From Hymenochaete sp. R1 (Eukaryota; Basidiomycota; Agaricomycetes; Hymenochaetales; Hymenochaetaceae), in assembly GCA_019400425.1 (NCBI GenBank), contig JAFREE010000013.1, positions 186,001-250,000 of the forward strand: DNA of 64,000 bases, in the 5' to 3' direction. Shown in pieces: positions 7,853-54,994 of the stretch. The notes under the pieces were generated by a model. That model had not been told where the DNA came from. It saw only the letters and a program-made list of their open reading frames with translations, and searched no databases. The first letter of the stretch is position 1. Every line of letters begins with the position of its first letter. Position numbers and translations under genes: made by a program.

Positions 7853-9216
7853 ATGAAGTTCCTCCAGAGCCGTGCGATCGCCTTCTCCCTCTTGGCCATC
7901 TCTCTTGCGCCGAATGCCTCTGCACAGGGCTTCTTCAACAGGCGTCAGGACACTTCCTCCTTCTGTAGTGATGCCACGACAGTGTTCGAGACCTCCACCG
8001 TTCAGCAGACCAACACAGTAACGGTATTCCCTTCTGACTGCTCGACAACTGGTATGCCTTTGTAATCAATGTTTGACACTCTTTGCTGACACGCCTTGCA
8101 CTCAGCTATCACGACGTCTGACGTTCCAACTACCACACCCGACACGTCTATCATCGACTCGACCAGCACTGACGATTCCACGAGCTCGACCGAAACTTCC
8201 ACGGACTCGACGAGCTCGACTGAGACTTCTACGTCCGACTCTACCAGCTCAACTGATACGTCCACCGACGACTCTACCAGCACCGACGACTCGACCAGCA
8301 CTGACGACTCGACCAGCACCGACGACTCAACGAGCTCGACTGAAACTTCTACGTCCGACTCAACTAGCTCTACGGACACCAGCTCGACTGACACCAGCTC
8401 GACGGACACCAGCTCGACGGACACCAGCTCGACGGACACCAGCTCGACGGACACCAGCTCCACTGACACATCCACGTCCGACTCGACGAGCTCGACCGAC
8501 ACGAGCTCGACCGACACGAGCTCTACTGACACGAGCTCAACTGACACGAGCTCGACCGACACGTCCTCCACGGATACGTCTACATCTGACTCCACGAGCT
8601 CGACCGACACCAGTTCGACCGACACCAGTTCGACCGACACCAGCTCGACCGACACTAGCTCGACCGACACTAGCTCAACGGATACCAGCTCCACCGACAC
8701 TAGCTCAACGGATACGTCATCCACTGACACTTCTTCGACGGACACCTCTTCGACCGAGTCATCCACCATTACATCGGCGCCGGACACAACCTCCACCAGC
8801 TCCGTTACACCCACTGGAACTACGACTGTTACCGTCACGACGACTTCGACCATCTTTGTGACTGAGTTCGAGACCAGTAAGTGCAAGTGACTGCAGATTG
8901 TATGGCTGGATGCTGATTCTTCTTGCAGCGACCGTGACCTCGACCCAAACTGCCACGGACACCGTCTCCGAGACCTCGACTGTTGACACGACCACCACCA
9001 CTGAGACCGTTGCGGGCACTAACGTAAGCTTCCATCTCAGCTTTTACAATTCACCTTTAACTCATGGATCCCCCTACAGACGCAGACCGCCTTCGCTGAG
9101 ACTGACACAACCACAGTTGTACGTTGACCTCTTCCTTTTTTTATCATCTTGAGTCTCACCATCTTTCCTTTTTTTAGACTGCGACCGCGACTGTCACTGT
9201 TACCACGTCTACATAA
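7853..9216 (+). CDS. Secreted Ser/Thr/Asp-repeat (mucin-like) protein
   Basis: The predicted protein has 380 aa in five exons: 7853-8051, 8106-8876, 8929-9023, 9080-9118 and 9178-9216, all phase-consistent. It opens with a clear signal peptide (MKFLQSRAIAFSLLAISLA..ASA) and a short Cys-containing segment with V-F-E-T-S-T-V and V-T-V-F-P-S-D-C. About 200 residues are repeats of S-S-T-D-T and S-T-D-D, followed by a Thr/Val-rich tail (TVTVTTTSTIFVTEFET). Ser and Thr density implies heavy O-mannosylation, so a cell-wall or extracellular role is likely. The C-terminus ends in VTVTTST without a hydrophobic GPI-type segment, so it is probably secreted or wall-bound rather than lipid-anchored. Tiny last exons of 39 bases are unusual but keep frame. 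No enzyme domain is seen. Confidence 0.85.
8150..8760 (+). repeat. Codon-degenerate minisatellite coding for S-S-T-D-T repeats
   Basis: A 15-base unit (acc agc tcg acg gac and variants) is repeated in tandem about 25-30 times, with interspersed T-S-T-S-D-S-T spacer units at about 8470, 8585 and earlier. Adjacent units around 8390-8460 are nearly identical, a sign of recent slippage or unequal exchange. Confidence 0.85.
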
Positions 9217-47955: not shown

Positions 47956-48222
47956 GCTCTCACGCCTCATTAATCTCATTTTTTGTCTCATGGAAGATTT
48001 GCGTTATCATGGTTGTTTGGAAGCGAAACCATAGCTTTAAGCATGTGGCGTCGGCGCGTTCTTATTTTGCTGGACATGCATATTCTCACAAGCTATAATT
48101 CAGATAGTCAGGATGTGTGGCGAACGAAACCTTCTTTTCCTTCTCGCCACGTTGACTGCCCAAGTGAGTTTCTTGCTTTCGTTCAGTAGACGAAATGTTC
48201 TCACCGATCGAATTAGCTATCC

Positions 48223-48768
48223 ATGATGCGGCCTCGACGACCGGTGCATTCTCTCTCAAGATCTATGTCTGTTCCTGCCAGTACGCCCCTTCCAGGCTCC
48301 CAGCTGCATGTATGGGAGAATGAGGAGCATCTGGAGCAGCTCACTCGATTAAACACTAGGCTAAATGGCAGAACGTTGTTTCCTGGCACCTCCCTAGAGA
48401 CTCAGACGGCAGAATCGTGCTCAGTCGACTCAAACAGGCAACCAGCTCCTCCGAGTACACCTAGCACGCAGCTTCATCGCCGTGATACTTCAAGTGCGCT
48501 TCACAAACAACTTGATAGCAACAACAATTTAGATAACCTCTTGGCGGCGTTCTGCGTGCTCACGGGCTTATACATCTTACTTCGCATCGACAGTTTTTGG
48601 AACAATCTCTCCTTACTCAGTTCGTTCTCGCATATACTAGCATGGATCTGCTCGAGCGGCTCTCTTTTTCTTTCATTATGCGGTGTTTTCGTATGCGCGG
48701 ATGCTCTGCAGCCCGCCAGGGAAATGTTCCTGGCACGGCATCGAGAGGCTACTCTAAGGATGCAATAA
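48223..48768 (+). CDS. Small predicted membrane protein of unknown function
   Basis: This is a single-exon frame of 181 codons starting MMRPRRPVHSLSRSMSVPAS. The first two thirds are polar and Ser/Pro-rich. Two hydrophobic helices follow (LLAAFCVLTGLYILLRI and LAWICSSGSLFLSLCGVFV), and a basic end (REMFLARHREATLRMQ). It lies 267 bases after the BCS1-like gene in the same direction and just before the 3' end of the tandem family. I recognise no family. Open frame, start context and hydrophobic pattern support a real gene moderately. Confidence 0.55.
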   Translation: MMRPRRPVHSLSRSMSVPASTPLPGSQLHVWENEEHLEQLTRLNTRLNGRTLFPGTSLETQTAESCSVDSNRQPAPPSTPSTQLHRRDTSSALHKQLDSNNNLDNLLAAFCVLTGLYILLRIDSFWNNLSLLSSFSHILAWICSSGSLFLSLCGVFVCADALQPAREMFLARHREATLRMQ

Positions 48769-48945: not shown

Positions 48946-49922
48946 TCAAAGAAACTGGATGCGGACATATCCTTCTTTAAGGAGTGGCAGTTCGACTATG
49001 TTGACTTTCAAGTTCCGGATCAATCCTTCGGATGTTTTATAACCTTCACTATTTTCAACAGGACTTGATACTTGTCCGGATGTCGAAGGTGTGGGAAACC
49101 GAGATCGAGCATGGGATTGAGTAGCGGGAGCAACACTGTCGTTGGACATGCTCCGAGTTACCCTGCCACTGCTCGTATCTGCGTAGTCGGAATCATCGTC
49201 AAAGGATGGTGAGATGGTTCCTATGGATGGAGTACTTTGGATGGCATCGGTGATAGCATAGGCAGGGGACTTGACGATATCGGGAGCGTGCGGGCTGGGA
49301 GACAGCGATCGCGTTTCCGGTGTCTGTGAAAGACGATGAATATTTTCCAGAAGCTCGGATATGACCTGGACTTCACGATTAACCTTGTCATAAATGGGCT
49401 TTGGAGGGCGCTGAGCTCGTTGGTTCTGCTGTAGCATTTCTTGACGAAGTTTCAGCCTAGGGAAGCGTTGTTTTCTTCTTGTGCGCAGCACTCACTGAAT
49501 TAGAAAACTCACTGAGTTTCGGAGCAAAAAATTCTGTGGCTCAAGGCAATCCTATAGTCCGCTCTCAAGTTTCCTGTACCAGTATTGCGCACAAACACAG
49601 ATGCCGCCCCACATAGTCGGCAATACTCCGTAGTCTCCGTGGCAATAGTGTTCTCGTCTTGCTCAAGGTATTGGAGTGTCTGGCCAGTGGAGTGTGGAAA
49701 AATCGCTTCTCGTAAGGTCCTCTCGGACCCATCATCAAGAATGACATGAGTTTGTTTTGGCTGGCCTTTGGGATAGACTATTTTACTGTAGCGCAATTGG
49801 AGTTTCAGCTTTCACGACTTGGACCCGATCGTGTTTCAAAACGAAACCCTTGTAGTACGAATAAGAGCTTACAATTGGAAGACCTTGCCATCCTCGCGTT
49901 TAAGTAATGCTAACCTGAGCAT
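48946..49922 (-). CDS. Tandem family copy A: zinc-finger-like protein with RIQFL tail
   Basis: The predicted 277-aa protein has exons 49922-49873, 49785-49513 and 49456-48946, phase-consistent. Exon 1 encodes MLRLALLKREDGKVFQ, exon 2 THVILDDGSERTLREAIF and YLEQDENTIATET, then the finger CRLCG...24 residues...HRIFC (C-x2-C-x24-H-x3-C). Exon 3 starts with a helical Q-L-K-L-R-Q-E-M and contains AYAITDAIQSTPS in a Ser-rich linker. It ends VELPLLKEGYVRIQFL. An upstream exon is possible (a gtaagt donor lies before the chosen ATG), so the N-terminus is the least certain of the four. I do not recognise a named domain; the finger pattern recalls an unnamed C-x2-C...W/R..H-x3-C motif seen in many mushroom proteins. 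Confidence 0.8.
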
Positions 49923-50584
49923 CTCCCTGCTCTTCCTTCTAGTTTGCTTGTCACATGTTCGACTTACCACTGGCATAGTAGCTCTTGCGCAACGACGATG
50001 TCACCAAAGGTTTGAAAGGCAAGGCAAGGTACAAGACAACTCTAGCGCCCTCGGCGTCATGATTATGACATATGGGCGTTGTGGACACGAGGCGAGCTAG
50101 AGCCTACTAGGAGTCTAAATAGTAGAAAATATTACTGTACGTAATCGTTGATAGCAGACCCATTGTTGAAACTGCATTGTCAATGCGGTTCAATCTCCGA
50201 GCAAAGAAATCACACGAATATCTACTACCAATGGCTTCAAGTTACACTGACTCAACTCGAACTTTACTTCGATCCAAGTTCATCCAACGTGCTCATTCAG
50301 ACGCGTAGCAAGAGCACATTTAGTTCAGGTACGTGGAGCATGAACGAACATCCCATCACGATTAACTTCTGGATCTTGCAGTGATAGACTATCTTATGCT
50401 TGCTTTGTTAAAATATTATCTGTCGAGACGTTGTGTGACACTTATCTGGAGTCAGTATGGTTATCTTTATTTCAGACGACCCTTAGACATAAGACTCGCG
50501 GTCCTGCAGCCTGTCAATTCGACACTCCTTGGGATGAGCAATATACTATTTTGTTTGCAGTTCATTTTATAAAGCACCGTGCCT
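49923..50584. other. Intergenic spacer between copies A and B
   Basis: It contains the promoter of A and the 3' flank of B. No gene fragment of the family was recognised in it. Confidence 0.5.
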
Positions 50585-51566
50585 TTAGAGAAACTGAATC
50601 CGAATAAATCCTTCTCGAAGGCGTGGAAGATCGACCACGTTTGTCTTCTTCACCAATCCACTGGATGTGTAAGCCCCGTCTTCTATATCGGAGGTCGAAA
50701 TGCAACCGGAACCTGATGTTGTGCGACGGTCGTTCTGAATAAGGTATCCAGTGTCTTCCGAGCATTGCTCGCGCCTTGCATCAGCCTGAAGAATCGCCCC
50801 AATACCGTTCAATTGAGAAGACTCGAGATCACTACCGAGTGAAGATCCAAGTAATGGAATGGTGCCCTCAGACGGCGTACTTTGAATGGCATCAGTGATC
50901 GCGTAAGCTGGTGTTCCTTCGTTTTCATGGACCTGCAGAGATCGATATTGTTCCTTAAATTCATCGGGCAAATGCTGACCATTCTCCGAGAATGTACGCT
51001 TGTCAGTGGATTTTGGATTCAAGTTGCCGCCGCTCCCTGACCTAAGTGGTACTTGTCGGCACTGTGAAAGTTTCTCCCGACGAAGTCTCGACCTTAGAAA
51101 AACATTTGTCATTGCTTCAGGTTTTGAAGGATGTAACTCACTGAGTTGCATGACAAAAGAGCCTGTGTCTCAAAGCCGCCCTATAATCGGGCCCAGTCGC
51201 TGCATTGCCAAACGAAGATACCTTCCCACATAATCGGCACTTCTCCGCGCTCTCCAGCATAGTGGTATTCCTGTCGTTTTCAAGGTATCGTCGACTTTGG
51301 AACCGTTTTGTAGAAGTCGGAAATATTGCCTTCCACAAGGTGACCTTTAACCCATCCAAAAGCACATATCTTCGATCGTGTGCTTTGCCGTATACGGATC
51401 TTTTGTTGGGTTAAAACAAACAGACGGTCAACAGCAAAATACGAAAATATTCAACTAATGGTCATAGAACTCACACTTCCACAATTGCGCCATCAGCACG
51501 CTTGATCAAGGCCAAGTCGGATCGATCTTCTTGATTGGTTTTGTTAACGACGTTCCGCCTTGCCAT
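50585..51566 (-). CDS. Tandem family copy B: zinc-finger-like protein with RIQFL tail
   Basis: The predicted 285-aa protein has exons 51566-51475, 51399-51142 and 51092-50585. Exon 1 gives MARRNVVNKTNQEDRSDLA and IKRADGAIVEV; exon 2 RRYVLLDGLKVTLWKAIF, YLENDRNT and the finger CRLCGKVSSFG...YRAALRHRLFC (C-x2-C-x20-H-x3-C). Exon 3 begins S-R-L-R-R-E-K-L and shares PAYAITDAIQSTPSEGTI with copy A. It ends VVDLPRLREGFIRIQFL. All splice borders follow GT-AG and restore the frame. Function is unknown. A single Cys2-His-Cys finger plus basic segments would suit nucleic-acid or protein binding, which is inference. Confidence 0.85.
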
Positions 51567-52257
51567 GACCCTGGACAGTCGATTTGGGGCAAAAAAAATG
51601 CTACAAGGACAAAAACGTACGGACACCCGCTGGGCTTATTATATGGCACTTTGATAATACCGCTGAAATAGGTATGCCAATGATAAGAAAAACCGAGAAG
51701 TCGCGGCAACGTACGTCGCTGGACTTGCCGGGTTCCAAATGATATGAAGATCACTGGAGAAAAGAAGGATATCTTTTCGTTATCTAGATCGTCTAGACTT
51801 GTAAACTAAGATGTTTCGTTAATTTGTCCAAGAATACTTCGGAAACTTCATTTGCGAGGCTACGCAGGACACTAGAACTAGCAGAAGAAAGAAGGGAAGA
51901 ACGACGCCGTCGATGGGGCTTCATGTTATACGATAATATGACTCAGAATCACGATTCGTTCAGAAACCTGCTCTGCGAAAACAATAATTGCCTTGTGTGA
52001 TCAATTGCTGAATGGAACCCTTTATAAAAACTAGTGAGACTCACTGGCACTATTCCAGATAATTAAGCCCACAGGCATTCTGCTTTGACTACGCGATAAA
52101 CTTCGAACCCGGCACGAATATCCAAAGTAGACTATTTAGGGTATTTTCCTTCAAGATTGGATCAGACTCAGAAATCAGGCGAGCATTATGGGAAAATCAG
52201 CCCACCAGCCAGGAATCCGTTCGACGTTCAATGTTATTCATGGACGAGCAGTACGGC
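51567..52257. other. Intergenic spacer between copies B and C
   Basis: Nothing beyond promoter and 3' flank is seen. Short frames are uncharacteristic. Confidence 0.5.
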
Positions 52258-53210
52258 TCAAAGAAATTGAATGCGTACGTATCCTTCTTGAAGGCGAGGA
52301 AGTTCAAGTATCTGTACTTGATGAGGCTGTCTACCTGGCCTTTCATCCACTCCAACAACTGCGGTAGAAGAAGGCATATCCAGCGCACCCCAAGAACATG
52401 ATGATTGACTCCGTATAGATCCTTCAAAATTTCTTCGGCTCGCGGAGATTTGTGTCGGCTTTTCATATAGTACTTTCTTCTGGGTCGCAGGAAGTCCGTA
52501 TGCATCGGGGATCGGGGGTCGATGACTGCCTTCCGAATGTGAGCGTGAGTCTCCAGACTCTCCATCATCGGAAGAGCCGGCTAGGAACTCCGGAAGATTA
52601 GGGCGACTCCGGGTTTCAATGATACGAGAATGAACCTCCTGTTGAAATTCGGGACCGCCGTCCGCTCTTGACTGCCGTAATGGTAAGGTGGAGGAAACAC
52701 TGCGCGACATCACTTCCCAATGCTTCTGCTCTTGCAGCTTTTCCCTAACAAAATCGTCACAATTAGCATGGGTGGAGGATACATAGTATGGAGTGTGATA
52801 TAAAAATGCTTACTGCAAAGGCTTACAAGTAAGCCTATGGTTAAGAGCGCTTCTGAAGTCACCGAACGTTTGACTTGGACTTTTATATTTACATGAAAGT
52901 CCACACAGAAGACAGCACACGGCATCATTAAAGACGGCTGCATTTTCATCCCGCTCGAAATACGCTCGGGCCCGTTTAGTGTAACGTTTTCCCTTAAACA
53001 TAAAGCGATTAGCCGCTATCGGCGTCCCATTGTCAAGGACCATCTGATTTTGTCTGCGACGAACGAGTTTTCTAAATCGAGAGGAGCAATAGCTGATCAG
53101 CAAGTTATCACTGAGGTGCTCAATCTGACAACTCACACCGTTACGATGGTGCCATCTTCCTGCTTTAAAAGCGCATCTTCTGTTTTCTCTGTTGGTAATC
53201 GAATGCGCAT
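52258..53210 (-). CDS. Tandem family copy C: zinc-finger-like protein with RIQFL tail
   Basis: The predicted 272-aa protein has exons 53210-53137, 53071-52814 and 52744-52258. Exon 1 is MRIRLPTEKTEDALLKQEDG followed by TIVTV; exon 2 has QMVLDNGTPIAANRFMFKG, AREYF-like ARAYFERDENAAV and the finger CLLCGLSC...FRSALNHRLTC (C-x2-C-x21-H-x3-C). Exon 3 starts EKLQEQKHWEV, the same helix as in D, followed by a Ser/Arg-rich linker without the A/B motif. It ends ILELPRLQEGYVRIQFL. In exon 2 it is closest to D (D-N-G-x-P, E-R/R-R-D-E-N-A). Confidence 0.85.
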
Positions 53211-54032
53211 TTGTACGATTCAGAGACCTGCGGTGTCTTGAAATAGAAGAGCCGGAGGGAAATGAGTGAAACAGAAAAACAAGGAGGTTAGCTGTATCAT
53301 TTTCTACGCTTTTATAATCGAAACATCAGCAGTAAGACAGCGTGGAATCTTTTCTCCTCATGCACCACTTTCCATCACCATGATCCGTACTGAATACTGA
53401 TAGGAGCTACTTCTTATAGGCTTCATGTAAATGCATCGATCGCGAGCAACGAGGTAGCCTCATGTCTTCCTTGTCATGAGGTGATGATTCTGACAGACTA
53501 GTACCAGTAATTTGATCCTTATCGATGCCATGACATGCCTCGAGAGATAACCCGTGTCTTCTTCCGTACGGCAAATATAGAAGGAGTCGAAATGGGAGAT
53601 CGTAAACGGGCGGAACAACGGACAGCGAACAATGTTTGCAGCTGAAGCATGGGGCGGAACCGATTCAGCCTCATACTCGAACAACTTCTCATATGTACAT
53701 ATGCTGAAGGAGCTTCACGCTTTGCAATCACGGTTCACTTGGGCAAGTGCATTAAAAGATAAATTGTCTGTATGATTAAAGTTACCCAAATGGATATCGC
53801 TGGAAAAAGATCAAGTGGAACTTACAACATCAGCTATTTTTGTAGAAGTCCACGCTAAAGTGATTCAGTTGGATCTTTTGACCTGAAAGTAAGTTCGAGA
53901 GAATGGAAACCATCTTCGCATTCCACATAAGCTTCAGTCGCCGCAGCGCAAATGAACGTTTGAAGCAGCTCGGCTCAGCAGCTACGAAAATAGTTTATGA
54001 TAAAATATAATTTGAAGAAGAGCATTCAGGTA
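53211..54032. other. Intergenic spacer between copies C and D
   Basis: The longest spacer of the array. A minus-strand frame of 74 codons at 53460-53684 has no finger or tail and is not called. No other feature seen. Confidence 0.5.
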
Positions 54033-54994
54033 TTAAAGAAACTGAATTCGTACGAAGCCCTTTCGCAGGGAAGGGAGATCGATGAAATGTACTTGCGTAT
54101 CTGGTTTGCTCGTTCTCTTCTCCGTGCCGATTACAGTATCTGACGGAGACATGCTCGACCTAGCATGCGACGTTGGCGAATGATCCTGTATTGAGCCATA
54201 AGTGGTCCATTCCCTCGTAGAAGATACGGCTGTGTTCAAATGCGACGGCGGCGGGATCTTCTTCTTGGTCGTGGTAGGAGAAGCAGAATGCTCAAGGGCT
54301 GGCGGGTGCTTACTGTCTTCAACATACATGTCGTCATCGTCATCCGATGAGTCACTACCAACTCCATTAGAACGCGCTGACGGTGACCCGAGATTCGGAA
54401 GACATTGGGGCTCAGTGGGATGTGTACGAGAGTCTTTCACTGAAGGGAGGCTGTTACTTGCTTCGTCCTGAAGAAGCGACGAACTGGGAGATGAATTACG
54501 GAGCTCGTCTTGCCGACACTTCTCCTCTTGCAGCTTCTTCCTTTCAGTGGGCAAAGTACATATCACTGACGAGCTAAATGCGGAAAGAGAAAATTCATAC
54601 TTACTGTAACCGCTTGCACCCGACTACGTGAGCGAAACTGCTCCGGAAGTCCAAGTTTCTCTTGCCCTTAAACTTAGTTTCATGGCCACACGCAAGACAC
54701 TCCACGGTACTGTTCGTGACTATTGCATTCTCGTCTCGTCTGAAGTATTCCCGGGCTCGTTCATTGACATAAATCGTTTTGAACAGAAACTGTGCAGGGG
54801 TTACCGGCGACCCGTTGTCGTAAATCAAGGAACCTTTTGAACTGCGGATCATTTTCCTGAGCCAAAAAATTCGTTTGCAGTTGAGCAGTATGGTAAGAAT
54901 TAGAAACAAACTAGACTTACACTATTATAATATTGCCATCTTCTCCTCTTATAAAAACATTTTTCCCGTCTCTTGTTTGCGGCGTTGCAGACAT
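54033..54994 (-). CDS. Tandem family copy D: zinc-finger-like protein with RIQFL tail
   Basis: The predicted 277-aa protein has exons 54994-54921, 54856-54605 and 54540-54033. Exon 1 is MSATPQTRDGKNVFIRGEDG followed by NIIIV; exon 2 has SLIYDNGSPVTPAQFLFKT, NERAREYFRRDENAIVTN and the finger CLACGHETKF...FRSSFAHVVGC (C-x2-C-x19-H-x3-C). Exon 3 begins KKLQEEKCRQDEL and carries an acidic patch (DSSDDDDDMYVED) in the linker. It ends FIDLPSLRKGFVRIQFL. It is the upstream-most copy of the array. Function unknown. Confidence 0.85.

Follow-up and report, generated by a model that had tools for sequence, protein, structure and literature searches.

What are the four similarly built genes that lie side by side on a contig of the basidiomycete Hymenochaete sp. 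R1, how old are they, and where does the zinc-finger-like module that they share come from? The genes, named A to D here, are found in a stretch of 64,000 nucleotides (assembly GCA_019400425.1, contig JAFREE010000013.1, positions 186,001 to 250,000 of the forward strand), called the window hereafter, whose coordinates are used throughout. A preliminary description made from the DNA letters (the first-pass annotation) had pointed to them as a lineage-specific, expanding family. The explanation that we consider fairly probable is that of an old tandem family, which reuses a finger exon flanked by two phase-2 introns together with a constant C-terminal tail, and whose members are putative nucleic-acid-binding regulators.

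Gene models and conserved motifs

To rebuild the genes, candidate GT..AG introns were listed for each copy, the joins on which the four copies agree were retained, and the resulting models were translated; exon borders are defined by splice consensus and agreement between copies, not by RNA. As previously described, four adjacent minus-strand genes with three exons each and both introns in phase 2 were recovered, at 48946-54994. Gene A (48946..49922) has exons 49922-49873, 49785-49513 and 49456-48946 and encodes 277 amino acids, an in-frame ATG upstream at 49976 being an alternative start that would give a longer protein. Gene B (50585..51566; exons 51566-51475, 51399-51142 and 51092-50585) encodes 285 amino acids, gene C (52258..53210; exons 53210-53137, 53071-52814 and 52744-52258) 272, and gene D (54033..54994; exons 54994-54921, 54856-54605 and 54540-54033) 277, which is the size range of 272-285 residues given earlier. 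All eight introns are GT..AG, in phase 2, and 49-87 nucleotides long. For exon 3 of B, the acceptor before 51092 was taken over the one before 51041, to which the script gave a higher score, because it retains the helix (R/K-L-x-x-x-K/M) seen behind the finger in the other three proteins. Three equal-scoring acceptors were available for exon 2 of C and two for exon 2 of D, and agreement with the other copies decided the choice.

An alignment of the four proteins contains 30 invariant columns. These include D-G, G, F, Y-x3-D-x-N, C-x2-C-G, D-x-R, H-x3-C and L-P-x-L-x2-G-x2-R-I-Q-F-L. The finger C-x2-C-x19..24-H-x3-C that was said to close exon 2 is present in all copies on the minus strand, with 24 residues between the second Cys and the His in A (49524..49622), 20 in B (51153..51239), 21 in C (52825..52914) and 19 in D (54616..54699), the last being the spacing of the fingers found on contig C266 (see below). 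In each of them a phase-2 donor lies 11 nucleotides past the last Cys codon. The tail LPxLxxG[YF][VI]RIQFL-stop is likewise present in the four proteins: it reads LPLLKEGYVRIQFL in A (48949..48990), LPRLREGFIRIQFL in B (50588..50629), LPRLQEGYVRIQFL in C (52261..52302) and LPSLRKGFVRIQFL in D (54036..54077), all on the minus strand and each directly followed by the stop codon. Three shorter motifs of the first-pass annotation have to be reworded. The N-terminal D-G-x-I/V-x-x-V holds for D-G-x-I/V, but in A its later Val is replaced by Phe; V/L-L-D-D/N-G describes A and C, but B reads VLLDG and D reads IYDNG; and the aromatic stretch noted as Y/F-x-x-D-x-N is more exactly Y-[LF]-x2-D-x-N.

A single tandem array

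The likeness between the four genes is not due to chance, given the E values obtained by tblastn within the window: 3e-18 for A-B, 5e-26 for C-D, and between 7e-7 and 3e-5 for the best match of each cross-pair. A degenerate pattern at the DNA level, encoding G[YF][VI]RIQFL and then a TRR codon, has four matches in the 27.8-Mb assembly, which are the four genes, and the reversed control pattern has none. Protein searches of the assembly with the whole D and B proteins, the tail of C and exon 2 of C, in which scores were given for the best candidates only, returned just genes A to D, apart from a single row at E 7.2 obtained with B. From tail to tail the copies are 1639, 1673 and 1775 nucleotides apart, a regular duplication unit. 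The genes form an old tandem array at a single locus, in which A is paired with B, and C with D, as sister copies.

Age and constraint

Synonymous divergence (dS), counted pairwise by the Nei-Gojobori method over the N-terminus and finger, is 1.43 for A-B and 2.54 for C-D. In the finger core, dS is at least 1.0 or saturated in the six pairs, the lowest value being 1.00 for A-B. The array is old: for most pairs, the sister copies included, synonymous sites are close to saturation or beyond it. These finger-core values leave the idea of a family that is now expanding unsupported. Amino-acid identity in the linker between finger and tail is 36% for A-B, 26% for C-D and 13-23% for the other pairs. 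The statement that the linker has almost no identity therefore does not hold for the sister copies, and A and B have a block AYAITDAIQSTPSxGTI in common. This block lies at 49213-49263 and 50858-50908 of the window and is absent from C and D; it is possibly a short motif or a binding site. In the 18 codons of the tail, identity is 56-78%, with a proportion of non-synonymous differences (pN) of 0.12-0.25 versus 0.44-0.83 for synonymous ones (pS). Purifying selection acts on both ends of the proteins, and the linker is far less constrained. The alignment, tblastn, the identity counts and the spacing thus uphold the picture of tandem paralogues in which the ends are fixed and the linker evolves fast. 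As to the ratio of non-synonymous to synonymous divergence in linker and ends, for which a comparison had been proposed, constrained ends and a freer linker are what emerges, but synonymous saturation allows no claim on positive selection either way.

Tandem copies whose linkers are 13-36% identical between fixed ends are also what would be expected of fast-evolving self/non-self or conflict proteins, the linker being their variable face. We judge this improbable. The saturation of synonymous sites would mask any positive selection, the linker may be a neutral disordered stretch, and the neighbours that match Pfam models (BCS1-type ATPase, STT3) are housekeeping-like.

Database searches

No Pfam model scored above its cut-off for the four full proteins or for their exon-2 pieces. 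A match of protein A with ANAPC16 (E 0.0067 for the whole protein, 0.001 for exon 2) was rejected; it lies under the Pfam cut-off and is not found in B, C or D. NCBIfam gave two chance-level families only, at E 0.071 and 0.12, with one member each. By sequence, the best match in the PDB (E 0.06) was an RNA polymerase subunit, aligned solely around the CxxC, and the viral structure library gave nothing at E up to 0.001. Among viral contigs, nine stretches matched a pattern and none was confirmed; among contigs of prokaryote genomes, none of 46 was. When the alignment of the four proteins was compared with a collection of 5.8 billion proteins, 5131 candidates shared words with it and none scored at E up to 10, and the exon-2 alignment gave 31 candidates, none of which scored. 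This collection seems to hold some relevant fungal proteins, but few: with a C266-type finger as control query, just 13 proteins came up within an E of 0.01, and the term "lineage-specific" is to be read within this thin coverage. The combination of finger and tail is unmatched in the libraries searched, and the tail is its unexplained part. The earlier statement that no named family corresponds to these genes thus stands for the whole protein, but likely relatives of the finger occur elsewhere in this genome. The lack of relatives among 5.8 billion proteins could also mean that the genes are decayed, non-functional remnants. This is very improbable in view of the four open, splice-competent models and of the synonymous changes in a tail that is conserved at the amino-acid level.

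Protein anatomy and role of the tail

The N-terminal half of the proteins would be folded; a Ser/Thr-rich linker of disordered appearance (22-31% Ser plus Thr in A-D) and the constant tail would follow. In the N-terminal half, a short beta element running from exon 1 into exon 2 would be followed by the finger, for which AlphaFold2 predicts, with moderate confidence and from a construct without the tail, the order helix-strand-strand-strand-helix. This half is basic (the net charge of residues 1 to 112 is +3 to +10), which fits nucleic-acid binding without showing it. Membrane-like, strongly hydrophobic segments were not seen in A-D, the highest mean hydropathy over 19 residues being 1.29. The finger may serve as a binding module, its zinc contacting nucleic acid or protein, in small intracellular regulators, with the linker as a spacer or as a regulatory surface that can diverge freely.

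For the tail, a docking or a folding element had been suggested, and both uses are conceivable. Its pattern reads as a strand, a P-x-L-x-x-G turn and a second strand. It may dock on a partner common to the four proteins, or form a beta-hairpin that packs against the N-terminal domain. In the latter case, the hairpin would complete the N-terminal beta module, and the protein would be a single closed domain with a long disordered insertion, with no separate docking partner. Hydrophobic residues that alternate on both sides of the P-x-L-x-x-G, the strand-turn-strand-like D-G pattern of exons 1 and 2, and the constraint on both ends around a drifting linker are all consistent with such folding. 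We hold this folding role as tentative. It competes with the docking role only and is compatible with the family explanation that we favor.

Genomic surroundings

According to Pfam matches, the neighbours of the array are a gene for a BCS1-type ATPase in one direction, and genes for a C2H2-finger protein and STT3 in the other. An open frame of 183 amino acids separates the BCS1-type gene from the array, at 48217-48768 on the plus strand; it contains a hydrophobic stretch and matches no Pfam model at E 0.001. Additional decayed copies were sought with a hidden Markov model of the four proteins against the frames of the window, and were not retained: 11 of the 12 known exons passed the inclusion threshold, which exon 1 of A narrowly missed, and elsewhere in the window there were two rows at E 0.64 and 2.1. 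Rfam gave nothing at gathering score within the window. At 8002-9018, a long Ser/Thr/Asp repeat (SSTDT units) can be read as a plus-strand frame of 266 amino acids, and the opposite strand also has a repetitive open frame, of 338 amino acids.

Similar fingers elsewhere in the genome

Fingers of the CxxCxxWIxL type are probably common in Agaricomycetes, which prompted a pattern search of the genome. The DNA pattern CxxCxxWIxL...WxxHxxxC occurs at 11 places in the assembly versus two for the control, and five of the 11 are in finger frames. The stretches inspected around the places on contigs C282, C292 and C332 contain no finger. Protein searches of the assembly located nine fingers on contig C266, four on C318, and others on C35 and C295. 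Among 14 reference fingers that were aligned, 13 are C-x2-C-x19-H, continued by x3-C in 12 and by x3-E in one; the C35 finger has x17 spacing and lacks the final Cys.

The nine Rua1_C-like fingers of C266 (C266:27771-31538, within C266:22001-32000) are packed in about 3.8 kb, 330-667 nucleotides apart, and five of the eight neighbour pairs can be joined by a phase-2 intron. This cluster is likely a polydactyl gene or a gene array of repeated finger exons. Four more such fingers lie in one 2.5-kb stretch on the minus strand of C318 (C318:28555-31095). The single degenerate finger on the window's own contig (C35:51572-51733) is about 183 kb from the array. The 13 protein-database relatives of the C266-type finger include a hypothetical protein named from Phellopilus nigrolimitatus. 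Rua1_C (PF14616), which covers the C-terminal part of the transcription regulator Rua1 and is the nearest Pfam family of the reference fingers, is precomputed in three of these 13 proteins and weakly matched by six of the 14 reference fingers (best E 0.003). No paper of the literature library searched mentions PF14616.

Proposed origin and significance

The array finger is probably a diverged form of the C-x2-C-x19-H-x3-C type present elsewhere in this genome, on exons that end with a phase-2 donor. If the finger is such a diverged copy, the family probably arose when a finger exon of this kind came to lie behind a short first exon and ahead of a new tail exon; tandem duplication would have followed. 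A bolder version is conceivable but doubtful. It holds that A-D are clade-restricted regulators born by exon capture, in which a symmetric phase-2/2 finger exon taken from a polydactyl gene of the same genome was inserted between a beta-hairpin exon and a new tail kept nearly letter for letter in the four copies, while the linker joining them drifted. The tail would then be an undescribed C-terminal module for docking or folding, found at this locus alone. Should the proposed origin be true, the locus would be a compact and testable case of zinc-finger exon reuse founding a new fungal gene family, and the C-terminal motif would be a handle for finding partners. The locus also brings to notice a finger type largely under the cut-off of its nearest Pfam model. 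Tandem zinc-finger families are ordinary. Nothing established is overturned.

Comparison with known finger types

The finger could instead be an independent invention, or derive from another C2HC/C2H2-like finger (BED-type, U1-like or TUT-like), its likeness to the C266-type then resulting from convergence between short fingers. Several observations speak for this and weigh against a common origin with the C266-type. The hhalign comparison of the two finger types gave a probability of 14% (pair E 0.0019), marginal and unconvincing alone, with scores as good in 0 of 200 full shuffles and in 8 of 200 shuffles that kept the ligands fixed. A Trp three residues after the second Cys is present in 11 of the 14 reference fingers and a Trp three residues before the His in all 14, whereas none of the four array fingers has either; these have C-x2-C-G and D-x-R where the C266-type has CxxCxxW and WxxH. 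Chains of ZBED2/ZBED3, of the spliceosome (presumably SF3A2-type fingers) and of TUT4 appear at similarly weak Foldseek and VIA scores. On the other hand, BED candidates were scored in the genome, and none was above the Pfam cut-off or in the array. The x19 spacing of D, the phase-2 donor past the last ligand and the order of helices and strands are common to the array and the C266-type. We regard an independent finger as rather unlikely, and diverged descent from the C266-type as the better explanation.

With the BED-type zinc finger (PF02892; ZBED2/ZBED3), the array finger has in common a CxxC followed by a predicted C-terminal helix that carries the His and the last ligand, but no array protein is above the curated cut-off of zf-BED. 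For Rua1_C, no match was obtained with the four array proteins or their exon-2 pieces, no array protein being listed at E up to 10, and the genome search with this model was without array proteins. The C266-type fingers have the same types of ligands, a spacing of x19 versus x19, x20, x21 and x24 in D, B, C and A, respectively, and, as in the array, an upstream helix with a conserved Asp; their AlphaFold2 models, again of moderate confidence, predict the same helix-strand-strand-strand-helix order. The phase-2 donor past the last ligand is found in four of four array fingers, at 11 nucleotides, and in 8 of 13 C266-type fingers, at 5-17 nucleotides, as read from the DNA on both sides. Unlike the C266-type, each array protein has one finger, combined with the constant RIQFL tail.
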